Shown piece after piece: positions 215 to 13,343 of a DNA stretch of 44,881 bases. The stretch is from an uncultured SAR116 cluster alpha proteobacterium (GTDB taxonomy: Bacteria > Pseudomonadota > Alphaproteobacteria > Puniceispirillales > Marisalimonadaceae), in NCBI GenBank assembly GCA_902619615.1, contig CACNFD010000014.1, forward strand, positions 1-44,881, in the 5' to 3' direction. The notes under the pieces are model-generated. The model saw only the letters and a list, made by a program, of their open reading frames with translations. It searched no databases and was not told the origin of the DNA. Positions within the stretch are counted from its first letter, which is position 1, and each line of letters starts with the position of its first letter. A program made the position numbers and the translations under genes.

Positions 215-1435
215 TTACCCGCCAAAATCATCAAGCATTATATCTTCCCTATCAACACCTAGATCAAGAAGCATGTTTATAACTGATTGGTTCATCATAG
301 GAGGGCCACACATATAATATTCGCAATCTTCTGGCGCAGGATGATCCTTCAAATATTGATCATATAAAACGTTATGAATAAATCCAGTAAGACCATCCCA
401 TTTATCTTCAGGCATAGCGTCAGAAAGAGCTACATGCCAACTAAAATTTGAATTCTCTTTTGCTAACTTATTAAAGTCTTCAACATAAAACATTTCTTTT
501 TTTGATCTAGCACCATACCAAAAAGTAACCTTACGTTTAGTTTTAATTCTATTAAATTGATCAAAAAGGTGACTCCTCATAGGCGCCATCCCTGCACCAC
601 CACCAATAAAAACCATTTCTTTATCAGTTTCTCTAGCAAAAAATTCGCCAAAAGGACCAGAAATAACTACCTCATCACCAGGTCTTAAGTTGAAGATATA
701 TGAAGACATCTTTCCAGCTGGAATTCCTGAAGAACCAGGTGGAGGTGAGGCTATTCTTACATTTAGCATAACAATGCCTTTTTCATCAGGACAATTTGCC
801 ATAGAATAAGCTCTTTCTATTGGCTCATTACTTTCAGCGCTAAAATCCCATATTTTAAATCTATCCCAATCTTCATGATACTCTTTGGCAACATCAAAAT
901 CTTTATAAGATAATGAATAACTTGGAGCCTCAATTTGTATATATCCCCCAGCTCTGAAGTTTACATCTTCTCCTTCTGGAAGTTCTAGTATTAATTCTTT
1001 AATAAATGTAGCAACATTATCGTTACTTCTGACTTTACATCTCCATTTCTTAACACCAAACACTTCCTCTGGCACTTCAATTTCCATATCTTGCTTAACA
1101 GCTACCTGACATGACAAGCGATCGCCACAAGATGCTTCTCTTTTGTTTATATGACTTTCTTCAGTAGGCAAAATAGCCCCACCACCTGAGTGAACCTTAA
1201 CTTTGCATTGAGCACAAGTGCCACCACCACCACATGCTGATGGTACAAAAAGCTTTTCTGCTGCAAGTGTTTGTAATAATTTACCTCCAGCTGGAACAGT
1301 AACTTTTTTTTCTCCATTAATAGTAATGTTAACATCACCAGATGATACTAATTTACTTCTAGCAAAAATGATAATTGACACCAAAGTTAACACAATCATA
1401 GTAAAAAGAGTTATACCGAGAACGAATGTATCCAT
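215..1435 (-). CDS. nqrF: Na+-translocating NADH:quinone reductase subunit F (NADH dehydrogenase subunit)
   Basis: This subunit takes electrons from NADH and passes them through FAD and a [2Fe-2S] cluster into the Na+-NQR complex of the inner membrane. The 406-residue length is normal for NqrF. It has one N-terminal membrane helix (about residues 5-25), then a plant-type ferredoxin domain whose cluster ligands read as Cys68, Cys74, Cys77 and Cys109. A ferredoxin-reductase module follows, with the FAD motif RAYSMA, the nucleotide-binding [16 protein letters not shown], and the family C-terminus DDFGG. It is the last gene of the nqrABCDEF operon, 12 bases after nqrE. The family assignment is firm; the electron route is established knowledge of the family. 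Confidence 0.97.
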
Positions 1436-1447
1436 TTCTTAATCCTT

Positions 1448-2056
1448 TTAAAGTTTAACGCCGGAAAAACACATAAAAGCCATTGCCATAAGTCCAGCAG
1501 TTATAAAAGTAATTCCGAGTCCTTGTAAGCCATCAGGTATATCACTGTACTTAAGCTTTTCTCTTACACCAGCCATTGTAGCAATTGCTAAGGCCCAACC
1601 AAATCCTGAAGCTATACCATAGGTTGTTGCTTCAGAAAAATTATAATCTCTTTCTACCATAAATAATGAACCTCCTAATATTGCACAATTTACAGTAATT
1701 AAGGGAAGAAATATACCTAAAGCATTATATAAAGGTGGAAAATATTTATCTAAAATCATTTCCAAAATTTGAACCAATGCCGCAATAACTCCTATGTAAG
1801 ATATTAAACCTAAAAAAGTTAAGTCAATATCTGGAAAACCTGCCCAAGCCAAGGCTCCAGGTTTTAACAAATATGAAAGTATTATATTATTTGCAGGCAC
1901 AGTTATAGATTGAACTATCATTACTGAAATACCTAAGCCAATAGCTGTAGATATTTTTTTAGATACAGCAATAAAAGTACACATCCCTAAAAAAAAGGAT
2001 AAAGCTAAATTTTCTACAAAAATTGCTTTTACAGCTAATGAAATTAAACCTTCCAT
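1448..2056 (-). CDS. nqrE: Na+-NQR subunit E
   Basis: NqrE is an integral membrane subunit (202 residues, about six hydrophobic helices) that pairs with NqrD in an inverted arrangement. The two half-helices carry Cys26 (in FLGMCTF) and Cys124 (in TVNCAILGG). In the known complexes the equivalent cysteines, with two from NqrD, hold an intramembrane iron-sulfur centre involved in moving electrons across the membrane. Its start codon overlaps the nqrD stop by one base, which indicates translational coupling. Length and motifs match the family closely; RnfA is the paralogue, but the six-gene nqr context excludes it. Confidence 0.96.
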
Positions 2057-2709
2057 TAATGTTCCTCTAACGTTTGTATTTTGTATTCACGGGCTTCAAC
2101 TTGAGACTTTTTCCATGTCCTAACACCCCATATGATAAATCCTATAATAAAAAATGCTGAAGGAGGTAACAATAACAAACCATTAGGGACATACCATCCA
2201 CCATTGCTAACAGGTTCAAAAATCATAACCCCAAATAATGAGCCTGAACCGAAAAGTTCACGTATCACACCTACACTCATTAATAAAAGACTATATCCAA
2301 GACCATTTCCAACACCATCAACAAATGATTCAAATGGCTTGTTTTTCATTGCAAAAGCTTCTGCTCTTCCCATAACAATACAATTTGTGATAATTAAACC
2401 TACAAAAACTGATAATGTTTTAGATATCTCATAAGCATATGCTTTTATTATTTGGTCAACTAAAATTACCAAAGATGCAATTATAACCATTTGAACAATA
2501 ATTCTGATTGAATTAGGTATATAATGCCTTAAAAATGAAATAAATAAAGACGAAAATCCACAAACGGCTATCACAGCTAATGACATAACGAATGCAACAT
2601 TTAAAGAAGATGTTACTGCTAAAGCAGAGCAGATTCCTAAAACTTGAAGTGTTATAGGGTTATTATCAACTAAAGGATCAATTAGTAATTCTTTCCTAGT
2701 TTGAGACAT
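2056..2709 (-). CDS. nqrD: Na+-NQR subunit D
   Basis: NqrD is a 217-residue membrane subunit of the sodium pump, partner of NqrE. It shows about six hydrophobic segments and the two conserved cysteine half-helices: Cys27 in [12 protein letters not shown] and Cys110 in [14 protein letters not shown]. In the family these help bind the central iron-sulfur centre. It overlaps nqrC upstream and nqrE downstream by single bases, so the three genes are almost certainly translated as a coupled set. The paralogue RnfE is excluded by the flanking nqrC, nqrB and nqrE genes. Confidence 0.96.
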
Positions 2710-3500
2710 TAAGCTGCTCCATTTTGTAAATTTTTTAGAAACTTTTTAAAACCTGCCTCACCCATCCAAAATTTTACCAGATTATCAACACCATTTGATG
2801 TGAGAGTGGCTCCAGCTAATGCATCAATATGATGTTCTTTATATTTTTTGGTTTTGGCAACAGTTATCATAAGTTCACCATTACCATTGTTAAGTTTCTT
2901 TCCTTTCCATTGCGCTTTCCATTTAGGATTGTCAACTTCAGCACCTAAACCTGGAGTTTCAGCATGTTGATAAAATTGAAGCCCGAATATATCATTACCA
3001 TTTTTTTCTAAAGCTATAAACCCATATAAAGTTGACCATAAACCATATCCATGAATTGGGAGTATAATCTTATCTAGAGAACCATCTTCTTTTTTTAATA
3101 GATAAACTGTAGCAAAGTTTGTTCTCCTTCCTATTGACGCTGGATCCTCTTTTAATGATATACTCAATTCAGGGTCTTGTGCGGCTTTTCTATCATCAAA
3201 AGTCAGAGGATCAAAGCGATTTGTAAATGTGCCCTGATTTAAGTCAACAACAATTGGTTCAAATGAAGAAAAGGATTTTTTGACATCAATACCTTCATAA
3301 TAAAGCCCAGCGACTTGAAGAATATTTTTTTGTTTATCAATGGATTTGTTAGCTTCTTGAACTTCTTTTAAATTAACAGCAGCAAATGAAACAACCATAG
3401 AACAAACAAGACATAAAGTTATTGCAACGATTAGAGTTTTAGTCATGCCATCAACTGGCATGTTTTTAAATTTAGTTAAAATATTATTGTGTTTGGACAT
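2709..3500 (-). CDS. nqrC: Na+-NQR subunit C (covalent FMN subunit)
   Basis: NqrC carries a covalently attached FMN on the periplasmic side and relays electrons within Na+-NQR. It has one N-terminal membrane helix, then a soluble FMN-binding domain ending in the flavinylation site AGAT-LT, where the acceptor threonine would be about Thr232. The residue before GAT is Ala, where the family usually has Ser or Thr. I chose the ATG at 3500 because an AGAAGGG ribosome site lies just upstream and the product then begins MSKHNN. A longer reading from 3548 would add 16 residues lying entirely over the end of nqrB. The gene overlaps nqrB by 17 bases. ApbE at 6221-7282 should attach the FMN. Confidence 0.94.
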
Positions 3501-4701
3501 TAAACTTTGCCCTTCTCTTAATATTAGCCATAACAACAAAATGATCAATTAATGGTGCAAATATATTTCCAAACAATATTGCAAGCATCATACCTTCAGG
3601 AAATGCGGGATTTAATACTCTTATCATTACAACCATAAAACCTATCAATGCGCCATATATGTATCGTCCAAGGTTAGTATGACTTCCGGAAACAGGTTCA
3701 GTAACCATAAAAACTAATCCAAATGCATAACTACCAATAACTAGATGCCAATACCAAGGCATACTAAACATTGGATTTGTATCTGAACCTACCCAATTAA
3801 GAAATGAAGAAAAAATGATCATTCCTAAAAGACATCCAATAACCATTCTATAATTTGCGATCTTTGTTAAAAGTAGAAAAACCAAACCTATGGCGCATGC
3901 AAGTGTTGATGTTTCACCGAGTGAACCTTGAATAGTTCCAAGAAAAGCATCTGCCCATGTAATTCCATAATTACTTAAACTTTCATAACCTTCGGCAGCC
4001 GCAATTCCAAGAGAAGTAGCTCCTGAATATCCATCTACAGGTGTCCAGATTGAGTCACCTGACATATAAGCTGGATAAGCAAAATATAAAAATGCACGTC
4101 CTGTAAGTGCCGGATTAAGAAAGTTCTTGCCAGTTCCACCAAAAACTTCTTTTCCAACCACAACACCAAAAGCTATACCAAGTGCCACCTGCCATAAAGG
4201 GGTAGATGCTGGCAAGGTTAGAGCAAACAACATGGAAGAAACTAAGAAACCTTCATTTACTTCATGACCTCGTATTGTAGCAAATGTTACTTCACAAATC
4301 CCTCCAGCAATTAAAGTGGTTAAATAAATCGGTAAAAAATACAATAATCCATGAAAGACATTTGATATTAAACTATCAGGGTCAATTCCTAAACCTGTTA
4401 ATTGAAGCAATGTTATTCGCCATCCTGATTGGGCCTCAACACTCATAGTGGCTAAAACGCTATTAGTTTGTAAACCAGTGTTGTAAAGTGCCCATAAGAT
4501 ACAAGGTATAGTGGAAATGACTACATATGTCATTACTCTTTTCATATCTACAAAGCTTCTGGCATGAGGAGCAACTTTTGTGACTGTGTTGCTTGTAAAA
4601 AATATTGTCTCAACCATTTCAAAAAGCGGGTAATACTTTTCATATTTACCACCTTTTTCAAAATGCGGTTCTAGAGAATGGAAGTAATTTCGTAATGACA
4701 T
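3484..4701 (-). CDS. nqrB: Na+-NQR subunit B (covalent FMN, ion-channel subunit)
   Basis: NqrB is the large membrane subunit that forms the sodium path and carries a covalent FMN and riboflavin. The 405-residue product has about ten hydrophobic segments. The flavinylation motif is DGYSGATSLG, with Thr229 as the expected FMN-phosphoester site (family knowledge; equivalent to Thr236 in Vibrio cholerae). The segment KEVFGGTGKNFLNPALTGRAFLYFAYP is typical of the family. It starts three bases after the nqrA stop and overlaps nqrC at its end. Confidence 0.96.
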   Translation of the reverse strand: MSLRNYFHSLEPHFEKGGKYEKYYPLFEMVETIFFTSNTVTKVAPHARSFVDMKRVMTYVVISTIPCILWALYNTGLQTNSVLATMSVEAQSGWRITLLQLTGLGIDPDSLISNVFHGLLYFLPIYLTTLIAGGICEVTFATIRGHEVNEGFLVSSMLFALTLPASTPLWQVALGIAFGVVVGKEVFGGTGKNFLNPALTGRAFLYFAYPAYMSGDSIWTPVDGYSGATSLGIAAAEGYESLSNYGITWADAFLGTIQGSLGETSTLACAIGLVFLLLTKIANYRMVIGCLLGMIIFSSFLNWVGSDTNPMFSMPWYWHLVIGSYAFGLVFMVTEPVSGSHTNLGRYIYGALIGFMVVMIRVLNPAFPEGMMLAILFGNIFAPLIDHFVVMANIKRRAKFNVQTQ

Positions 4702-4704
4702 TAA

Positions 4705-6048
4705 TTAACCTTCTTTTTCAATTTTTGTTAAACTGTCTCTCAGAGCAGTACCATATTCATATTTTGCAGGACAAGCAAAAGTACACAATGCAATATCCTC
4801 TTCATCAAGTTCAAGTGCACCTAATGATTGAGCAACATCAGTATCCATTACCAAAAGGGACCTAAGTAATTGTGTTGGTAAAAAATCCTGTGGCATTAAA
4901 GTTTCAAACACACCAGTTGGAACCATCGCCCTTCTTCCTCCATTTAAATTTGAGGTAAGATTAAAGAGTTTAAAAAAGCTAAAAGCAGACAAAAGTACAG
5001 GCATAACTGAATATTTATTGGGCTGAGGTTTAATCCAACCAAAAAAATGTTTTTCTTTATCTTCTTTTATAATTGTAATCTGCCTAGAATATTTTCCTAG
5101 ATAAGCCATGTCCTCAGTTGCATGAAACCCTGAAAGAATAGAACCTGAAATTATTCTGCAATCTTCAGTTTTATTGTATTCACCTTCGAGAATGTCTTCA
5201 AGAGATGCACCAACAATAGTCTTGATTAATCTTGGATTATTAGACATAGGACCAGATATTGAAACAGTCCTGTTAATATCAATGAAGCCATTCATAAACA
5301 ATTTACCAATTGCAATAACATCTTGATAACCAATTGACCATACTGTCTTATTAGCATTTGGCGGATCTAAAAAATGCATGTGAGTACCACTTAAACCAGC
5401 AGGATGTGGTCCAGCAAATTCATATGTGTCAAAACCATTGATCCTTATTACACTATCTTCTTTCTTACATATAAAGATATTACCGTTAGTCAAAAGTGAA
5501 ATGTGTTTTACACCTTCTTCAAATGCATTTAAATCATTCATAATTATAACATCTGCATCTGGGCATAGTGGCTCTGTATCCATAGCATTTATAAAAATTG
5601 AGGAGGGTTCAGATTTACCATCAGGAATTTTTGAGTAAGGCCTTGTTAAAAAAGAAGTCCATAAGCCACTACTGAACAAGCATTTTTTTGTGAACTCTTT
5701 TTTTGATTTTTCTTTAGCATGAAGTTTTGTAATTGAAATACCTTTATCTTCAAAATCTTCTATATCAATAACAACACTCAACAGTGATCTTTTTTCTCCC
5801 CTATTAATTTCTTTTACAAAACCTTTACAGGGAGAAACAAAAAAAACTTCTGGATTATCTTTGTGACAAAAAAGAGGAGTTCCCCTTTTTACCTTTTCTC
5901 CGACATTTATTAACATTTTAGGTTTAAGCCCATTGTAATCAGGACCTAGAACTGCTACAGATTTAGGAATTTTTGTATCTTCTATAACTTGTTTTGGTAT
6001 TCCCGCAACAGGAATATTCAGGCCATTCTTAAGATTGAATTTATACAT
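4705..6048 (-). CDS. nqrA: Na+-NQR subunit A
   Basis: NqrA is the cytoplasmic subunit of Na+-NQR, placed by family knowledge near the quinone site. The 447-residue product lacks membrane helices. It begins with the characteristic KNGLNIPVAG-type segment, continues through SVAVLGPDYNGLKPKML and contains the conserved GPHPAGLSGTH motif. It is the first gene of the operon, so transcription should begin in the 172-base spacer shared with apbE. A purine-rich AGAGG stretch lies about 15 bases before the ATG, rather far for a strong ribosome site. Identity is firm from length, motifs and operon position. Confidence 0.96.
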   Translation of the reverse strand: MYKFNLKNGLNIPVAGIPKQVIEDTKIPKSVAVLGPDYNGLKPKMLINVGEKVKRGTPLFCHKDNPEVFFVSPCKGFVKEINRGEKRSLLSVVIDIEDFEDKGISITKLHAKEKSKKEFTKKCLFSSGLWTSFLTRPYSKIPDGKSEPSSIFINAMDTEPLCPDADVIIMNDLNAFEEGVKHISLLTNGNIFICKKEDSVIRINGFDTYEFAGPHPAGLSGTHMHFLDPPNANKTVWSIGYQDVIAIGKLFMNGFIDINRTVSISGPMSNNPRLIKTIVGASLEDILEGEYNKTEDCRIISGSILSGFHATEDMAYLGKYSRQITIIKEDKEKHFFGWIKPQPNKYSVMPVLLSAFSFFKLFNLTSNLNGGRRAMVPTGVFETLMPQDFLPTQLLRSLLVMDTDVAQSLGALELDEEDIALCTFACPAKYEYGTALRDSLTKIEKEG

Positions 6049-6220
6049 TAAAAGTAATATTTGCCTCTATTTAAAAAATGATTTTTAATATAATTAAACA
6101 AGTCTATGTGAATAATGTTTATATATAATATATTTAAAAAAACACAAGTGCATATATGATTTTTTTTAATAAAAAATATTTATGTCTATGATTCAATCAA
6201 ATAATTAAAGATTTATTGCT
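6049..6220. promoter_or_regulatory. Divergent control region between nqrA and apbE
   Basis: This 172-base, extremely AT-rich spacer separates the minus-strand nqr operon from plus-strand apbE-nqrM. Both transcription units must start here or nearby. On the minus strand a CTTGTG/TATATA-like pair with roughly 17-base spacing is a possible promoter, but in DNA this AT-rich such matches are weak evidence. No clear operator dyad was recognised. Confidence 0.4.
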
Positions 6221-7282
6221 ATGGTAAAATTGGAACTAAATAAAATAATTAATTTTTTTGAGAATAAATTTTCAATTTTTTTTCTAATTTTTGTTATTTG
6301 TTTTAATTTTTTTTCATGCTCTCAAGAAAAAGATTTCAATGCTCAATTAAAAGGCAACACAATGGGAACTTACTATGTCATTGAGGTTGTAAATGTCCCA
6401 AAAAAATTAAAAATTAAAAAAATTGAAAAAGAAGTTCAAAGCACTCTAAAAAAAGCAAATAAGATTTTATCTAATTGGGATAAAAAATCTGAAATAAGCA
6501 TAATAAATAAAATGAATAAAACTACACCAATAAAAATTTCAGATGAATTAAATGAAGTTTTTAAAACTGCAAACAACATTAATATTAAGAGTAATGGTTT
6601 TTTTGATGTGACACTTGATCCTATAATTGAACTTTGGGGATTTGGCTACAAAAGTCAACAAATTCAAATAGTACCGACCGAACAGCAAATTATAAATACA
6701 TTATCAATGGTAGGTCAAAGATCACTTTTAAATATTAATTACGAAAACAACATACTTAAAAAAAATGATGAAAATTTAAAAATTAATCTATCATCTATTG
6801 GAAAAGGATTTGGAATTGATTTAATTGGAAGAAAATTTGATGAACTTGGAATAAGAAATTACTTAATTAATATCGGAGGAGACATTCTTACGAAAGGACA
6901 CAACAAAAAAAAAGAAAATTGGGTCATTGGTATTGAAAATCCAAATTTAAAAGAAAAATTAATAAAAGAGATAGTCAATTTAACAAACAAAGGCTTAGCA
7001 ACATCAGGAGATTATAAAAATTTTTTTACTAATAACGGCAAAAGATATTCACACATTATAAATCCAAAAACAGGAAAGCCAATAATGCATTCAACGAAAT
7101 CTGTTACTGTTATTCACGATAATTCAATGAAAGCTGATGGTTGGGCTACTGCTTTTTTAGCCCTAGGAAGTTTGGAAGGATTGAGAATTGCTAATAAAGA
7201 AAAAATAGCAGTACTTTTTATTGACGAAATTGATAATAAACTTGTAAAATTTAAAAGTAGTGCATTTAAAAATTTAAAATAA
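6221..7282 (+). CDS. apbE: FAD:protein FMN transferase (flavin transferase for Na+-NQR)
   Basis: ApbE cleaves FAD and attaches the FMN half to a threonine of target proteins; the neighbouring NqrB and NqrC are the obvious substrates. The 353-residue product starts with a hydrophobic export segment ending at FFSC (Cys33), consistent with a lipoprotein or membrane-anchored periplasmic enzyme. Family motifs are visible in order: GNTMGTYY, LINIGGD, TSGDYKNFF, HIINPKTGKPI and DGWATAFLALG, the last containing the Mg-binding and active-site Asp region. It is followed 42 bases later by nqrM and faces away from nqrA. In many bacteria apbE sits at the end of the nqr operon in the same direction, so the divergent layout is unusual. 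Confidence 0.95.
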   Translation: MVKLELNKIINFFENKFSIFFLIFVICFNFFSCSQEKDFNAQLKGNTMGTYYVIEVVNVPKKLKIKKIEKEVQSTLKKANKILSNWDKKSEISIINKMNKTTPIKISDELNEVFKTANNINIKSNGFFDVTLDPIIELWGFGYKSQQIQIVPTEQQIINTLSMVGQRSLLNINYENNILKKNDENLKINLSSIGKGFGIDLIGRKFDELGIRNYLINIGGDILTKGHNKKKENWVIGIENPNLKEKLIKEIVNLTNKGLATSGDYKNFFTNNGKRYSHIINPKTGKPIMHSTKSVTVIHDNSMKADGWATAFLALGSLEGLRIANKEKIAVLFIDEIDNKLVKFKSSAFKNLK

Positions 7283-7324
7283 GACAACAATTGAGATTTA
7301 TAAAAAAATATCGTAAGTATTAGT

Positions 7325-7537
7325 ATGGATATATTTATTTTTGCATTTTTATTCTTTTTAGTAATTACAATTTTAATGTCACTTGGCGTGATTTTAATGA
7401 ATAAAAAGATTAAAGGAAGCTGTGGTGGATTGAATGCTATTTCTAATTCAGATAAATGTTCTGTTTGTAATAAAGAGATAGATCCTAATAGTCCATTAAT
7501 TGATCAACTTGATTGTAAAAAAATTCAAAAAATATAA
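7325..7537 (+). CDS. nqrM: Na+-NQR maturation protein NqrM (DUF539-type)
   Basis: NqrM is a small protein needed to assemble Na+-NQR, thought to deliver iron for the NqrD/NqrE centre (family knowledge). The 70-residue product has one N-terminal membrane helix (about residues 3-25) and then four cysteines, Cys33, Cys45, Cys48 and Cys64, in the family pattern SCGGL...CxVC...C. It follows apbE in the same direction. Its stop lies three bases from the end of a convergent gene. The combination of helix, SCGGL and the nqr/apbE context makes this a strong call despite the small size. Confidence 0.93.
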   Translation: MDIFIFAFLFFLVITILMSLGVILMNKKIKGSCGGLNAISNSDKCSVCNKEIDPNSPLIDQLDCKKIQKI

Positions 7538-7540
7538 CTT

Positions 7541-7747
7541 TTATTTATCTAGTGGCATGAACACCAAAACAATAAAGGATATTGAAGAAACAATTCCATT
7601 GACCCAAGCTTTTCTTTTCCAATCGTTTTCTTTATTTTTTAAATTTATTATAAACGATCTTCCAAAAATAATAAATATAATCAATAAAAAAAGAGCTTTT
7701 GTGTGTGAATAATAAAATAGTTCTTCAAAATTATTGATGTCTATCAT
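7541..7747 (-). CDS. Small two-helix membrane protein, unknown function
   Basis: I do not recognise this 68-residue product. It has two hydrophobic stretches (about residues 17-33 and 48-64) separated by a charged, lysine- and tryptophan-containing loop (KNKENDWKRKAW), which suggests a small inner-membrane protein with a basic loop. Its ATG lies 17 bases inside the end of the preceding transporter gene, an arrangement typical of a translationally coupled pair. It converges with nqrM. A competing reading on the plus strand (7500-7712) overlaps nqrM and looks less protein-like. Coding status rests on length, hydrophobic pattern and coupling, so confidence is moderate. Confidence 0.55.
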   Translation of the reverse strand: MIDINNFEELFYYSHTKALFLLIIFIIFGRSFIINLKNKENDWKRKAWVNGIVSSISFIVLVFMPLDK

Positions 7748-8660
7748 TTAATTCTCTTTTTAATATTAAATCATTAATTTTATTTTTATTTTCAAATAGG
7801 TAAATTCCAGTAAATATCATAGATAAAGATAAGAAATGGTGGAACTGAAAACTTTCTCCTAAAAAAAATACTGCTAATATTGAACTAAAAACAGGTACTA
7901 GATTTGTATATAGGCCAGACCTTGCAGGTCCTATTTTTTCAACACCTTTCATAAAAAAGATTTGAGCTAAAAATGATGGAAAAATAATTATTACACCTAA
8001 AATAATGCAACCTTTTAATCCTGGAAGAATTAACTGGTTTGAAAAAGTTTCATAAATTAAGCCAGGAATTGAACCTAAAAAAGCTACATATGCAAAAAAA
8101 GTTAGTAAAGGAAGCGCCCCAAGTTTAGGTTTTTTTCTAAGACCTACTGCATAAACAGCATATAAAGAGCAGGCAAAAATCATTACAATGTCACCACTAT
8201 TTAATTCTAAATTAAGCAATAAGCTTAGATTTCCAGAACTTACTACTATTAATACAGCTATAAAAGTAATTAACACACCTAAAAATTGGGTTAAGTTTAT
8301 TTTATCTTGTAACCAAACCCATGCAATTATAATTATAAATGCTGGCATTGTACCTTGAACTAAACCAAGATTTATTGCGATAGTATCATGAGCTGCAACA
8401 TAATAAGCAGAGTTAAAACCAGTAAAACCAAATAAACCCATTAAAATAAGCCATTTAATTCTCTTACTTAAAATTTTCCATATTTCTTTCAATTGTTTTC
8501 TACATAAAATTGATAGTATAATTGAGACAAAAAACCACCTTACACTTACTATTAACAGTGGAGAAACCTCACCAACTGCCGATCTTCCTGCTATTGTATT
8601 AAATGCCCAAAAAATAGATGTAAGTGTTAAAAGAAAGTGAGGGTTGGTTAAAATTTTCAT
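7731..8660 (-). CDS. EamA/DMT-superfamily transporter (first of three)
   Basis: This is a 309-residue inner-membrane protein with about ten hydrophobic helices in two repeated halves, the drug/metabolite transporter (EamA) architecture. Typical landmarks are FWAFNTIAGRSAV near the N-terminus, VRWFFVS in helix 2, and GLYTNLVPVFSSILAVFFLGE in the second EamA repeat. Proteins of this type often export amino acids or other metabolites, but the substrate cannot be read from sequence. It starts 111 bases before the divergent molybdenum hydroxylase operon and is coupled to the small membrane gene at 7541-7747. Confidence 0.88.
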   Translation of the reverse strand: MKILTNPHFLLTLTSIFWAFNTIAGRSAVGEVSPLLIVSVRWFFVSIILSILCRKQLKEIWKILSKRIKWLILMGLFGFTGFNSAYYVAAHDTIAINLGLVQGTMPAFIIIIAWVWLQDKINLTQFLGVLITFIAVLIVVSSGNLSLLLNLELNSGDIVMIFACSLYAVYAVGLRKKPKLGALPLLTFFAYVAFLGSIPGLIYETFSNQLILPGLKGCIILGVIIIFPSFLAQIFFMKGVEKIGPARSGLYTNLVPVFSSILAVFFLGESFQFHHFLSLSMIFTGIYLFENKNKINDLILKRELNDRHQ

Positions 8661-8771
8661 AAAATTTTTTAAGCTTTGATATTTAAATGTATTGAATAAG
8701 AAAAAATTAATTGTTATTTATTAATATAATTCTTTTTCTTTATACTTAAATTTAATTCATTGGGAGATAAA

Positions 8772-9641
8772 ATGTCAAATACACATTACCTAGCTGCAAA
8801 GACTATAGATGAGGCAGTTAACGCTCATTCAAAGGCTAATGGTTCAGCAAGCTTCTTGGCTGGTGGAACAGACTTGTTAGTACAAATTAAAAGTGGGATT
8901 AGAAAACCTAATTTAGTTATAGATATAAAGAAAATAGTTGAATTAAACTCTATTCAAGAGGTTTCTGATAATGAATTTGTAATTGGTGCCTCTGTTTCTG
9001 GTGCAAACTTAAATAGAAATACTAAATTTGCTAAACTTTGGCCAGGTGTTTTAGAAGCATTTAGGCTAATTGGTTCAGAGCAGATACAGGGAAGAGCTTC
9101 TCTTGGAGGAAATCTGTGCAATGGTTCACCAGCTGGTGACAGTGTTCCAGCCTTAATTGCAGCTGGTTGTAAAGCAGTAATTGCTGGTCCAAGAGGTAGA
9201 AAAGATATACCAATTGAAAATTTTCATTTAGGACCAGGTAAAACTGTTTTAGATAATGGAGAAATGCTTGTGAGTTTGAAGTTTCCTAAGCGTGTTTCTA
9301 ATTCTGCGGATGCTTATTTAAGAATGACACCTAGAACTGAGATGGATATTGCTGTTGTGGGTTGTGGTGTCAATATTACATTGGAAAATGATACTTGTAC
9401 TCATGCAAGAGTTTCATTGGGTGCTGTTGCACCTACACCATTATTAATTGAAAAAGCTTCTGAAATTATGGTTGGATCAAAACTTGATAATGACACCTTA
9501 GATAAAGTTTCCAAAATGTGTATGGATGCATGTAATCCAATTAATGATAAAAGAGGAACGGTTGACTACAGAACAAAAGTTGCTGGAGTTTTATTTAAAA
9601 GAGCTACAAAATTAGCAGCTGAAAGAATTAGAGGAAATTAA
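8772..9641 (+). CDS. Molybdenum hydroxylase, FAD-binding medium subunit (CoxM/XdhB type)
   Basis: This subunit holds the FAD that passes electrons out of a xanthine dehydrogenase/CO dehydrogenase-type enzyme. Two FAD pyrophosphate motifs are visible: FLAGGTDLLVQIKSG near the N-terminus and RASLGGNLCNGSPAGDSVPAL around the middle. The C-terminal CoxM domain ends with KVAGVLFKRATKLAAERI. I start at the ATG at 8772, where GGGAG lies about five bases upstream; an in-frame TTG at 8760 would add only four residues that overlap that ribosome site. It is the first gene of a medium-small-large operon, with four bases to the next gene. The substrate is unknown. Confidence 0.92.
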   Translation: MSNTHYLAAKTIDEAVNAHSKANGSASFLAGGTDLLVQIKSGIRKPNLVIDIKKIVELNSIQEVSDNEFVIGASVSGANLNRNTKFAKLWPGVLEAFRLIGSEQIQGRASLGGNLCNGSPAGDSVPALIAAGCKAVIAGPRGRKDIPIENFHLGPGKTVLDNGEMLVSLKFPKRVSNSADAYLRMTPRTEMDIAVVGCGVNITLENDTCTHARVSLGAVAPTPLLIEKASEIMVGSKLDNDTLDKVSKMCMDACNPINDKRGTVDYRTKVAGVLFKRATKLAAERIRGN

Positions 9642-9645
9642 CACC

Positions 9646-10125
9646 ATGGCAAAAATTCAAGTTTCAACTACAATAAATAATGAAAATATTGAGTATTTAT
9701 GTGAGCCACATGATACTATGTTGGATGTTTTAAGAAACCAATTAAATTTAACAGGGTCTAAAGAAAGCTGCGGTTCAGGTGATTGCGGATCCTGTAGCGT
9801 CATTCTAGACGGTGAATTAATTTGTTCGTGTTTAATGTTAGCTGCAGAAGCTGAAGGAGGCAGCATAGAAACAATTGAAGGAATGTCTGAAGGTGGTAAA
9901 TTACACGCATTACAACAAAAATTTCTTGAAAAAGCCGCACTTCAATGTGGCATATGCACACCTGGTTTTTTAATGGCCTCTAAAGCGCTCTTAGATCATA
10001 ACCCTTCGCCAACTGAAACTGAAGTTAGATATTGGCTTGCTGGTAATTTATGCAGATGTACTGGGTATGATAAGATTGTTAAAGCTGTATTAGAAGTTGC
10101 TGATGAAATGAAGGAGATCTCTTAA
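9646..10125 (+). CDS. Molybdenum hydroxylase, [2Fe-2S] small subunit (CoxS/XdhA type)
   Basis: This 159-residue subunit carries two [2Fe-2S] clusters linking the molybdenum site to FAD. The N-terminal ferredoxin-like cluster uses Cys42, Cys47, Cys50 and Cys62 (pattern CxxxxCxxC then C). The C-terminal four-helix cluster uses Cys101, Cys104, Cys136 and Cys138 (LQCGICTPG and LCRCTGY). All eight ligands are present. Its stop codon overlaps the start of the large subunit in TAATG, so the two are translationally coupled. The assignment is firm for the family, not for the substrate. Confidence 0.95.
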   Translation: MAKIQVSTTINNENIEYLCEPHDTMLDVLRNQLNLTGSKESCGSGDCGSCSVILDGELICSCLMLAAEAEGGSIETIEGMSEGGKLHALQQKFLEKAALQCGICTPGFLMASKALLDHNPSPTETEVRYWLAGNLCRCTGYDKIVKAVLEVADEMKEIS

Positions 10126-12362
10126 TGAATGAAATAAGTAACAAATGGATTGGCAAAAATACCATAAGACCTGACGGAGCAGATAAAGTTACAGGTCGAG
10201 CTCAATATTCATCAGATACAACAATGCCAGGTATGATTTGGGGTCATGTGTTAAGAAGCCCTCATCCACACGCTAAAATTTTAGCTATTGATACAAAAAA
10301 GGCAGAAGCTTTGGAAGGAGTTAAGGCAGTAATAACATCTAAAGATGTGGTTGACTTTCCCATTGATACACCGGTTATACTCGGTATTCAAGACATGCGC
10401 TGGATGTGTAGAAATGTAATGGCTAGAGACAAAGTCCTTTTCCATGGCCATCCACTTGCAGCAGTTGCAGCAACAACTGAAGAAATAGCAGAAAAAGCAT
10501 GTGAATTAATAGAGGTAGAATACGAAGTTTTACCATGGGCCATTGAAATTGACGACGCAATAAAACCTGACGCTCCTATTCTACACGATCACATTCAATT
10601 TGAAGAAAAGCCCTCTAATATAGCTGGTACTCTTGAGCATAAAAAAGGTGATATTGATAAAGGTTTTTCAGAAGCTGATATCATTATAGAAAGAGAATTT
10701 AAAACTGAAGCAGTTCATCAAGGATACTTAGAAACACATTCATGTTTAGTAAGTGTTGCAGCAGATGGTAGAGCTACTATATGGAGCTCAAGCCAGGGTC
10801 AATTTATGGTAAGAGCGATGACCTCATATTTAACTGGTATACCACAGAGTAATATTAGAGCAATACCTGCTGAAATTGGCGGAGGATTTGGAGGAAAAAC
10901 TATTGTTTACCTAGAACCATTGGCAACTATTTTGTCACAAAAAACAGGTCGTCCAGTTAAAATAGTTATGAACAGAGAAGATACAATGAGAGCTTCCGGG
11001 CCTACATCTGGATCTAAAAGTAAAATAAAAATTGGTGCTACTAAAGATGGAAAAATTGTTGCAGCACAAGGAACATATTATTTACAAGCAGGAGCTTTTC
11101 CTGGTTCGCCTATTAGAGGTGCTGTAGGATGTTCTCTTGCACCGTATGATATTCCTAATGCCCATACTTTTGGTTATGATGTTGTATCTAACAGATGTAA
11201 AGTTGCTGCATACAGAGCTCCTGGAGCTCCTATTGGTGCTTATGGGGTCGAATGTGTTTTAGATGAAATTGCTGAAAAACTTAACATGTGTCCTTTGGAG
11301 TTAAGAAAAATTAATGCTGCAAAAGAAGGAACACAAGCAGTCCACGGCCCTACTTATCCACAAATGGGTTATTTGGAAACAGTTGAAGCAGCAATAAACC
11401 ATCCTCATTATAAAGCCCCTTTAGGCAAGCATCAAGGTCGAGGCGTAGCAAGTGGTTTTTGGTTTAATGCTGGTGGAGAATCAAGTGCACAGTTAAACAT
11501 CACTGAAGACGGGAATGTAGTTGTAACAACAGGACATCCGGATATTGGAGGCTCCAGAGCATCTATAGCCAATATTACTGCTGAATTATTAGGTATTCAT
11601 CATGATAAAGTATCGGTTTTAATTGGTGACACAGCAACAATTGGATACAGCAATCTTACTGGAGGAAGTAGAGTATTATTTGCTTCTGCAATGGTTGTAA
11701 CTGAATCTGCTAAAATAGTAATTAAACAATTAAAACAAAGAGCAGCTAAAATTTGGGGCATTGATGAAGAAGCGATTGAGTGGGAAAATGGTGAAGCAAG
11801 ACCTGCCGGTGATAATGCAGGAAAATTTGCTCCACTTACGTTGGCTGAGTTAGCAGAAAAGGCCACCGCTACCGGCGGTCCAATTGGAGCTGGATACCAG
11901 GTTAACACAGAAGGTGCTGAAGGCGGCTTTGCAACTCATATTTGTGATGTTGAAGTAGATATGGATCTTGGTATAGTTAGGGTAAAGCGATATACATCTA
12001 TACAAGACGTTGGTAAAGCCATTCATCCTGATTATGTGGAAGGCCAACTTCATGGTGGTTGTGTTCAAGGTATTGGCTGGGCTTTAAGCGAAGAGTATAT
12101 CTACAACAAAGATGGTCATTTGGATAATACTGGATTTTTGGATTATAGAATGCCTGTATGTTCAGATTTGCCAATGTTAGATACTGTATTAATCGAAATT
12201 CCTAACCCAAAACATCCACAAGGAGTAAGAGGTGTAGGTGAAGTCCCTTTAGTTCCGCCTCTGGCAGCTATATCAAATGCAGTTTATCAAGCAATCGGGA
12301 AACGTTCATACAGTCTTCCAATGTCGCCACCTAAAGTTTTAAAGATTATTGAAGGCAACTAA
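10125..12362 (+). CDS. Molybdenum hydroxylase, molybdopterin-binding large subunit (XdhC-family substrate unknown)
   Basis: This is the catalytic subunit: it binds molybdopterin and hydroxylates an unknown substrate with oxygen from water. At 745 residues it is a normal length for the xanthine dehydrogenase superfamily. An N-terminal a/b hammerhead domain (GADKVTGRAQYSSDT onward, about 15-130) precedes the Mo-binding domains. Key sites are GGGFGGK (252-258), AYRAPGAP (362-369) and the catalytic glutamate in GVGE (Glu706). The 362-369 loop is not the AYRCSFR of form I CO dehydrogenase nor the AYRGAGR of form II, so true CO oxidation is unlikely. An EamA transporter follows 30 bases downstream. 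No xdhC-like sulfurase or coxD/E/F-type maturation gene is present nearby. Confidence 0.93.
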   Translation: MNEISNKWIGKNTIRPDGADKVTGRAQYSSDTTMPGMIWGHVLRSPHPHAKILAIDTKKAEALEGVKAVITSKDVVDFPIDTPVILGIQDMRWMCRNVMARDKVLFHGHPLAAVAATTEEIAEKACELIEVEYEVLPWAIEIDDAIKPDAPILHDHIQFEEKPSNIAGTLEHKKGDIDKGFSEADIIIEREFKTEAVHQGYLETHSCLVSVAADGRATIWSSSQGQFMVRAMTSYLTGIPQSNIRAIPAEIGGGFGGKTIVYLEPLATILSQKTGRPVKIVMNREDTMRASGPTSGSKSKIKIGATKDGKIVAAQGTYYLQAGAFPGSPIRGAVGCSLAPYDIPNAHTFGYDVVSNRCKVAAYRAPGAPIGAYGVECVLDEIAEKLNMCPLELRKINAAKEGTQAVHGPTYPQMGYLETVEAAINHPHYKAPLGKHQGRGVASGFWFNAGGESSAQLNITEDGNVVVTTGHPDIGGSRASIANITAELLGIHHDKVSVLIGDTATIGYSNLTGGSRVLFASAMVVTESAKIVIKQLKQRAAKIWGIDEEAIEWENGEARPAGDNAGKFAPLTLAELAEKATATGGPIGAGYQVNTEGAEGGFATHICDVEVDMDLGIVRVKRYTSIQDVGKAIHPDYVEGQLHGGCVQGIGWALSEEYIYNKDGHLDNTGFLDYRMPVCSDLPMLDTVLIEIPNPKHPQGVRGVGEVPLVPPLAAISNAVYQAIGKRSYSLPMSPPKVLKIIEGN

Positions 12363-12392
12363 TTGTAAAAAATAGTTTTATTATTTAGATCA

Positions 12393-13343
12393 ATGAATCG
12401 TGATAGTAAAACTTTGATAATATTAGCTTATATTTCTGCATTTTTAGGGGTATGTGGTCATGCCAGTTCTGAATTTTTTGTTAAACTTTCAGGGATTTCT
12501 GGCGTGGAGGTATCTGTTTGGAGATTTGGTTTAGGTGGCTTTGCCCTATTGATATTATGCTTAATCAACAAATCATCTAGAAACTTAATAACACCTCTTA
12601 AAAAAGACCCCTACCCCATTGTTATTCTTTCAGTTTTTGGTATGGCATTTGGACAATTTTTATTTCATTGGGCCTTAGATTTTGCTTCTGTTGTACAAGT
12701 TGCTACTATGGTTACAATAATGCCAATAGGAGTCGTTTTTGTAGCTCGTATCATTGAAGGAACTAAAATAACACCCCCAAAAATAATAAGTGGAATTGGT
12801 GCCTTTCTAGGATGTGTTTTTTTACTTACCGACGGCTACTTTGAACAACTCAGTGGGACTGGGGATAGTATCTTGGGCATTTATTTATCTATTGGATGTG
12901 CTTTAGTTGGAGCAATTTATCTTGTTATGGTTAAACCTTATGTTCAAGTATATGGTCCTGTAAGAATGACTACATACACTTTTCTACTGGGCTTTATAGC
13001 TTTATATCCATCCATAGGTATTATTTGGAATATATGGGTAAACCCATTTGATCTTTTTGATAGAACACATGTTGAATATATGTCCATAATAACTCTTGGA
13101 GTCTGGAATACTTGCATAGCATTTATACTTTGGTTGTGGGGTCTATCTAAAATACCTGACGTAGCAAGAGGAAATTATTTGTTTTTCTTGAAACCTGTAA
13201 TTGCTTTAGGATTAGCATTTTTTATTCTTGAAGACGAAATTACTATTAATCAGTTAATTGCAATTTTTGCAATAACTGGATTTGTAATATTAGAAATTTT
13301 TTATTCTCCAATTTCTAATTTTTTTAAATTTAAAAGAAATTAA
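12393..13343 (+). CDS. EamA/DMT-superfamily transporter (second of three)
   Basis: This 316-residue protein has about ten hydrophobic helices and the two-repeat EamA layout. Landmarks include HASSEFFVKLSG and VSVWRFGLGGFALL in the first helices, a conserved FLFHWALDFASVVQVATMV-like third/fourth helix, and FFLKPVIALGLAFFILEDE in the second repeat. It begins 30 bases after the molybdenum hydroxylase large subunit on the same strand and is probably co-transcribed. That makes it a candidate importer or exporter for the hydroxylase substrate or product; this link is inference from position only. Confidence 0.87.
   Translation: MNRDSKTLIILAYISAFLGVCGHASSEFFVKLSGISGVEVSVWRFGLGGFALLILCLINKSSRNLITPLKKDPYPIVILSVFGMAFGQFLFHWALDFASVVQVATMVTIMPIGVVFVARIIEGTKITPPKIISGIGAFLGCVFLLTDGYFEQLSGTGDSILGIYLSIGCALVGAIYLVMVKPYVQVYGPVRMTTYTFLLGFIALYPSIGIIWNIWVNPFDLFDRTHVEYMSIITLGVWNTCIAFILWLWGLSKIPDVARGNYLFFLKPVIALGLAFFILEDEITINQLIAIFAITGFVILEIFYSPISNFFKFKRN

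Follow-up and report, generated by a model that had tools for sequence, protein, structure and literature searches.

SAR116 bacteria carry a conserved three-subunit molybdenum hydroxylase from a sharply bounded, uncharacterised alphaproteobacterial enzyme family

Three adjoining genes of an uncultured SAR116 bacterium raise the question of which molybdenum enzyme they encode and what this enzyme might oxidise. The genes lie in a window of 44,881 nucleotides, i.e. the whole of contig C14. The genome (G000) measures 2.16 Mb in 59 contigs, is 99% complete and has SAR116 single-cell genomes as its nearest named relatives. An earlier reading, made from the sequence alone, had described them as an orphan molybdenum hydroxylase with intact cofactor ligands. 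We find that they encode a member of the xanthine oxidase family, with an FAD (flavin adenine dinucleotide), a [2Fe-2S] and a molybdenum subunit. The kind of enzyme is already known, and within it these genes belong to a clean, conserved and unassigned family.

Three subunits of a sharply bounded family

The FAD-binding medium subunit (M, 289 residues) is encoded at 8772..9641, the small subunit with two [2Fe-2S] clusters (S, 159 residues) at 9646..10125 and the molybdopterin-binding large subunit (L, 745 residues; model m25f0eecc6120) at 10125..12362. All three are intact open reading frames (ORFs) on the forward strand, as are all features of the window given below unless stated otherwise; 4 bp separate M from S, and S and L overlap by one base. 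M starts with the ATG at 8772, whereas the ORF program places the start 12 bases further upstream, at a TTG. The Pfam matches are far above cut-off (PF00941 and PF03450 for M, PF01799 and PF00111 for S, PF01315, PF02738 and PF20256 for L), and each subunit has the domain content of the xanthine oxidase family, which in L consists of Ald_Xan_dh_C, MoCoBD_1 and MoCoBD_2. No export signal was noticed on any of the three, a statement made without a signal-peptide tool.

M contains the FAD motifs AGGT (residues 30-33, 8859..8870) and LGGNLC (residues 111-116, 9102..9119). Eight of the ten cysteines of S are cluster ligands, namely Cys42/47/50/62 of the first cluster (9769..9831) and Cys101/104/136/138 of the second (9946..10059). 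The predicted catalytic base of L, Glu706 (12240..12242), belongs to the C-terminal GxGE motif and is invariant in two alignments, one of 27 sequences of group A (27/27; the groups are defined below) and one of 12 sequences that combines groups A and B with one distant relative. The three-subunit make-up and the full set of ligands proposed by the sequence-only reading are thus both borne out.

Relatives of L were found 306 times on genome contigs, and the best 80, which were kept, are 75-99% identical to it in the best segment. They come from SAR116, Roseomonas and other Acetobacteraceae, Nisaea, Bradyrhizobium, Reyranella and others. Among plasmid records the best 37 listed are 47-52% identical and the next is 33.6% identical, and the same drop appears in a spread listing. 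The plasmid copies belong to Ruegeria, Mesorhizobium, Sinorhizobium, Rhizobium, Shinella and Marivivens, and the megaplasmid of a cultured strain, Ruegeria pomeroyi DSS-3, carries a four-gene module with the locus tags SPO_RS21915-21930. When up to two best first-look candidates were scored per genome, 23 of 397 Pseudomonadota genomes (the window's included) reached at least 1128 bits, all of them Alphaproteobacteria, and the next eight matches had 505-570 bits; 74 of 386 alphaproteobacterial genomes (G000 included) matched at E <= 1e-180 in a search of the same design. The family is alphaproteobacterial and, as scores and identities drop so steeply at its edge, sharply bounded.

The 110 family loci fall into group A (58 loci, 73-99% identical to the window) and group B (52 loci, 48-59% identical); these counts include three pairs in which L is identical over residues 30-700 (L071/L074, L072/L178 and L079/L177). 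A tree of 44 rows combined 12 references with the sequence from the window and with selected members of group A (12 of 55) and group B (19 of 38); the enzymes of the PDB were outside it. Group A lies on one side of a branch with a Shimodaira-Hasegawa-like approximate likelihood ratio (SH-aLRT) of 100, and groups A and B together are separated from the references with the same support. Group B is a grade rather than a clade, with L143 as the sister of group A. The tree was made by a quick method with a midpoint root, and the program flagged long branches, i.e. it shows the boundary of the family and not its place among characterised enzymes. We note that one locus, L074, lies on a contig of a metagenome-assembled genome labelled Dehalococcoidia; its L is one of the identical copies (with MarineAlpha12, L071), with the same neighbours (NIPSNAP, DctP), and the contig is probably a misbinned alphaproteobacterial one.

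Within one SAR116 family of the GTDB (f1), L is present in 47 of 58 genomes at a minimum of 76% identity, the mean completeness being 73%. Among the 11 genomes without it one (G004) is 95% complete. Partial copies occur in G051, with an in-frame TGA, and in G053. In the sister family f2, four genomes with a completeness of 99-100% gave no match at E <= 1e-180, and three genomes of family f236 have group B copies (52%). A reported break in the L gene of G675 (a TAA) was ruled out, as the gene model is intact and encodes 746 residues.

L is under extreme purifying constraint. The ratio of nonsynonymous to synonymous substitution rates (dN/dS), calculated by NG86 and rough in that dS exceeds 1 in most pairs, is 0.010-0.031 for six pairs within the genus and 0.073 in a second genus. 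Neighbouring genes gave 0.04-0.10 (EamA gene downstream), 0.05-0.14 (EamA gene upstream) and 0.17-0.21 (6-phosphogluconate dehydrogenase). The mean column identity of L in 27 group A members is 84%. Both the low ratios and the presence of L in most f1 genomes indicate that the module is not there by chance, which supports the earlier reading as far as a real enzyme under strong selection is concerned.

The active site and the candidate substrates xanthine, carbon monoxide and aldehydes

The active-site loop of L is AYRAPGAP (residues 362-369, 11208..11231). It matches neither the form I (AYXCSFR) nor the form II (AYRGAGR) loop of carbon monoxide dehydrogenase (CODH), as the sequence-only reading had pointed out. 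The AYRAPG core of the loop is not diagnostic, since it also occurs in 6-hydroxypseudooxynicotine dehydrogenase (7dqx) and in the form AMRAPG in PaoC of E. coli.

A more specific signature was obtained by comparing 93 family members (55 of group A, 38 of group B) with 11 references. Forty-one positions show a conservation of 96% or more among the members and recur in at most two references; they include H198, Q199, T259, R357, P366, W446, N448, R478, W544, H634, R675 and H697. Three conserved arginines are near the pocket by sequence, namely R357 (91/93), R364 and R478 (11556..11558; 93/93), and may hint at an anionic substrate. The GQG/GTG motif, which contacts the pterin and is found in ten references, reads GG-SR in the family, with R478 at this place, and is one residue shorter; among the references aligned, this gap is shared only by a relative from Thermomicrobium.

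At the position of T259 (92/93 members) xanthine dehydrogenase has its purine-binding glutamate (GGKE), which is E802 in the bovine enzyme. The absence of this residue speaks against M-S-L as a second purine (xanthine or hypoxanthine) dehydrogenase, a role that could be argued from the bacterial XdhA profile, one of the best NCBIfam matches of L (NF043082, 423 bits, cut-off 780; TIGR02965 gives 233 bits, cut-off 849.5), and from a urate oxidase gene (Urate_ox_N) next upstream of the module in the Bradyrhizobium locus L099. Urate oxidase adjoins the module at this locus only. Moreover, a genuine xanthine dehydrogenase is already encoded in G000, within a purine cluster on contig C2. There a fused protein of the XdhA type (397 bits, cut-off 467) and XdhB (970 bits, above its equivalog cut-off of 849.5) are encoded beside urate oxidase, and further frames look purine-related by eye. 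A purine substrate, as considered in the sequence-only reading, is therefore very improbable. Purine-usage genes and operons of SAR116 are described in passages of PMC11698098.

A variant CODH is what homology-based annotation of SAR116 might call the enzyme, with the gene order M-S-L and the homology to CoxL (313.5 bits, cut-off 991) in its favour. L, however, is without the CSFR of form I and without Cys388, which binds copper in CODH. The large subunits found in G000 are four, with the loops AYRAPGAP, AFRGFGGP, QYRAVGHP and ALRTLGAF, and none of these is a CODH loop, which makes CO an unlikely substrate; a search for the exact form I and form II patterns, which did not extend to form I variants (for instance SYRCSFR), gave no match anywhere in the genome. 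In 52 sampled genomes of the window's GTDB family the form I pattern occurs in 14, the form II pattern in 5 and AYRAPG in 44, these being counts of DNA patterns, for which homology at the gene level was verified in only 10 loci. As 14 of these genomes match the form I pattern, CODH is a separate gene where it is present. Parts of PMC13203968 define form II by the AYRGAGR loop and the order S-L-M, and the present genes differ in both. Although CO oxidation genes are reported throughout SAR116 in parts of PMC12262181, we regard the CODH reading as extremely improbable.

The RAPG loop core in common with PaoC, together with a gene set that stands alone without pathway neighbours (see below), would fit a broad, detoxifying aldehyde oxidoreductase of the PaoABC kind. 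The PaoC equivalog profile gives L only 291 bits against a cut-off of 1180, and the 84% column identity would seem to exceed what a broad detoxifier usually needs. We consider this reading unlikely.

Two of the other sets in G000, both on contig C20, are of note. One (L108, 3252-6984) is another M-S-L-like set, the one with the QYRAVGHP loop, whose large subunit comes closest to the alpha profile of glyceraldehyde dehydrogenase (522 bits; the cut-off is 790). The other (L109, 8252-10405) encodes a xanthine oxidase family protein of 717 residues in which the profile blocks are displaced, i.e. residues 25-140 match positions 468-583 of one profile and residues 564-714 the C-terminus of another. 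It is preceded by a frame of 154 residues resembling an Fe-S protein, and we take the pair to be probably a two-subunit enzyme of the IorAB type.

Module, neighbourhood and maturation genes

Group A loci consist of M-S-L only. In group B, 46 of 52 loci have a further gene after L, of about 82 residues and MoaD/ThiS-like (missing in L143, L169, L172 and L174-L176), and 45 of these 46 carriers end in Gly-Gly. The Ruegeria carrier is named MoaD/ThiS in its record; its ThiS Pfam score, 21.1, is just below the cut-off of 22.5, and it has no NCBIfam match. Neither gene models nor tblastn (E <= 0.01) revealed a MoaD-like gene at the 58 group A loci, in 56 of which the sequence continues for 400 bp or more beyond L. 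Since the basal group B locus L149 has the carrier and L143 is without it, the simplest reading of the sequences would be that it was lost on the way to group A. In L166 a YqeC gene (9601-10356) follows MoaD after 5 bp; genes of the YqeC kind adjoin YqeB/MocA in E. coli.

The neighbours of the module were clustered from the gene models of the 80 kept loci and then of 113 loci (110 of the family, 3 of the outgroup). Only M, S, L and MoaD recur across the clustered loci, i.e. no pathway gene is stably linked. The next most widespread cluster at 40% identity, an FKBP-type isomerase, is found in 11 loci of the Acetobacteraceae type, and at 32% identity a generic short-chain dehydrogenase/reductase is found in 16/93. 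The Pfam content of 50 neighbour proteins is mixed (TctC, DctM, E1/E2 dehydrogenase, amidohydrolase, luciferase-like, ribosomal S4, SpoU), and the same-strand neighbours within 150 bp that were scanned, which are not all of them, have no common theme. Since the module has no pathway gene as a constant companion, deducing the substrate from the neighbours was rejected. Rfam detected no riboswitch in the window or at the loci of 37 relatives, where its only matches were tRNAs and a single RNase P RNA, and a promoter scan gave no excess over shuffled sequences.

An EamA transporter gene (12393..13343; PF00892) lies 30 bp downstream of L, and the sequence-only reading had coupled it to the enzyme. 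In the window's genus the gene follows L at 28 of 30 loci, the exceptions being L043 and L053, which lack it despite 6 kb of sequence. It was found at 0/50 other loci, i.e. L055 of a sister genus and 49 more, 18 of which have less than 6 kb after L. Since the gene adjoins L in the window's genus only, the link is a local SAR116 feature and not a property of the family, which weakens the proposed coupling. A divergent EamA gene upstream is also present in L055. Elsewhere in the window, 215-6048 (reverse strand) and 6221-7282 (forward strand) resemble an operon of the sodium-translocating NADH:quinone oxidoreductase (Na+-NQR) with ApbE; only ApbE was profile-tested, falling below its cut-off, and the remainder was judged by eye.

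A lead came from Nisaea, where a Rieske oxygenase and its reductase, GbcA/GbcB-like (529 bits, cut-off 670, and 372 bits, cut-off 500), stand between S and L, as if M-S-L oxidised a compound that arises when betaine or methylated amines are broken down. This arrangement is confined to one lineage and 3/110 loci, and two of these (L072 and L178) have the identical L mentioned above, so that the three loci probably stand for two distinct genomes. Of the genomes with the family, 6 of 74 have GbcA-like genes, as do 18 of the 312 that lack it (Fisher p = 0.43), and none is found in G000 at the same threshold. The lead was dropped for want of co-occurrence, and the reading is improbable. In these Nisaea-type operons (L072, L081, L178) a thiamine pyrophosphate enzyme gene also adjoins the module. 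A glycine-betaine ATP-binding cassette (ABC) transporter near the Marivivens copy was likewise rejected, the ABC proteins at other loci being only 28-44% like it.

The enzyme had been called an orphan because no maturation gene was seen nearby. Indeed, none of 15 maturation-type queries (XdhC, PaoD, YqeB/C, MocA, CoxD-, CoxE- and CoxG-like) has a match in the 44.9 kb window (tblastn, E <= 0.01), but such genes exist elsewhere in G000, so the part of the claim that holds concerns the window alone. The genome has one XdhC_CoxI gene (PF02625, PF13478) with a MocA-like gene directly after it, which gives an ordinary explanation for the lack of maturation genes near the module. A MoaA-like frame is seen by eye about 6.6 kb upstream of this pair, and a CoxD/CoxE-like pair (AAA and VWA_CoxE-like) is found on C10, the CoxE match being borderline (26.1-26.5 bits, cut-off 26.4). 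The XdhC closest to that of SAR116 was found in a group B genome, G083, in two reading frames 45% and 53% identical to it; five other XdhC-type proteins are 24-27% identical. There the locus (L146, G083:C4:3000-22000, 2832-13174) reads CoxG-M-S-L-MoaD-S'-M'-XdhC-MocA-aminotransferase V (cysteine-desulfurase type)-NifU_N, apparently a complete kit for cofactor sulfuration and insertion. The MocA domain in it is preceded by an N-terminus of 340 residues without a profile match. According to passages of PMC2997495, a NifS-type desulfurase sulfurates the molybdenum cofactor bound to XdhC, and on plasmid pAO1 a single xdhC is co-transcribed with mocA beside two such enzymes, a shared role that is called speculative there.

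Taken together, the genes probably encode a stand-alone cytoplasmic sulfido-molybdenum hydroxylase that is matured in trans by XdhC and MocA and acts on neither xanthine nor CO. L would bind the sulfurated cofactor, which the MocA-like protein would most likely make as the cytosine dinucleotide and which the single XdhC encoded elsewhere in the genome would sulfurate and insert. With Glu706 as the base, L would transfer oxygen from water to a C-H group that is either adjacent to a heteroatom or part of an aldehyde, and the electrons would pass from molybdenum over the two [2Fe-2S] clusters of S to the FAD of M and on to a further acceptor. The enzyme is probably a housekeeping one whose M-S-L(-MoaD) module changes contexts without a fixed pathway, and the substrate may be a small anionic N-heterocycle or aldehyde.

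Several points weigh against this proposal. The cytosine form is not certain, since both maturation proteins stay under their NCBIfam cut-offs, the MocA-like one with 123.5 bits to its best model, TIGR03310 (cut-off 186.45), and XdhC with 214.7 bits (cut-off 350). The XdhC of G000 may serve mainly xanthine dehydrogenase, and the XdhC/MocA cluster of G083 may serve another enzyme, as a second FAD/Fe-S pair is present there. The active-site loops of the L model have a predicted local distance difference test (pLDDT) below 50, too low for the pocket to be interpreted. More tentatively, the family might represent a new enzyme type, i.e. a hydroxylase of a common anionic metabolite that is not known as the substrate of any molybdenum hydroxylase, with the arginine-bearing, shortened GQG/GTG motif and an original four-gene module, whose dedicated MoaD/ThiS-like carrier was lost in group A, SAR116 included; this is possible but rather doubtful.

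If the substrate were found, an enzyme of most genomes in one SAR116 family could be assigned a part in the cycling of some dissolved nutrient, and so could its relatives in Roseomonas, Nisaea, Bradyrhizobium, Mesorhizobium and Ruegeria. Homology-based calls of 'CO oxidation' or 'xanthine dehydrogenase' in SAR116 may at present merge different enzymes. The sulfur carrier of group B offers a concrete handle, as the four-gene module is present in the cultured and genetically tractable R. pomeroyi DSS-3.

Comparison with known enzymes

No subunit scores above any NCBIfam equivalog cut-off. The best match of L is the 4-hydroxybenzoyl-CoA reductase alpha subunit (424 bits, cut-off 995), and M (127 bits, cut-off 404.55) and S (160 bits, cut-off 258) are similarly below the beta and gamma equivalogs; glyceraldehyde oxidoreductase alpha gives 393 bits with L (cut-off 790). 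In open-licence PMC no title or abstract on the family was found, and AYRAPG was absent from the papers among the matches listed there. The family groups with none of the references compared (NCBIfam, PDB and the tree of 12 references), and the enzyme is, as had been suspected, an uncharacterised one. Nicotinate dehydrogenase (3hrd), quinoline 2-oxidoreductase (1t3q) and 7dqx were compared through the PDB search, outside the tree.

The closest known system is 4-hydroxybenzoyl-CoA reductase HcrABC of Thauera (1rm6), which has the same three-subunit make-up and fold and is the top PDB match by sequence and by structure. An AlphaFold2 model of L (mean pLDDT 73.8, predicted template modelling score 0.71) has 1rm6_A as its best solved match in Foldseek, with a predicted structural agreement of TM score 0.82 at 30% identity. 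Nevertheless, this low identity and scores well below the equivalog cut-offs set the family apart; HcrB, moreover, carries an extra [4Fe-4S] loop. Form I CODH CoxMSL (1n5w, 8uem) has the gene order and fold seen here and differs in the active-site loop, in an identity of 26-29% and in the linked cox accessory genes, which the window lacks. The dehydrogenase 7dqx, a molybdenum hydroxylase of an N-heterocycle, has the loop core of L, but its 410 bits to the family profile are below those of 4-hydroxybenzoyl-CoA reductase (482) and inside the range of the CODH chains (389-441), i.e. there is no sign of orthology. Xanthine dehydrogenase XdhAB belongs to the same family at large and has the same cofactors, and it differs in its purine-binding glutamate. 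The nearest reference outside the family is the uncharacterised TRD_RS11010 of Thermomicrobium roseum (36%, SH-aLRT 98), for which no M or S gene is annotated alongside in an incomplete plasmid gene table. It is without R478 and W544, but shares GGKT, AYRAPG and the shortened GQG motif with the SAR116 enzyme and its relatives.

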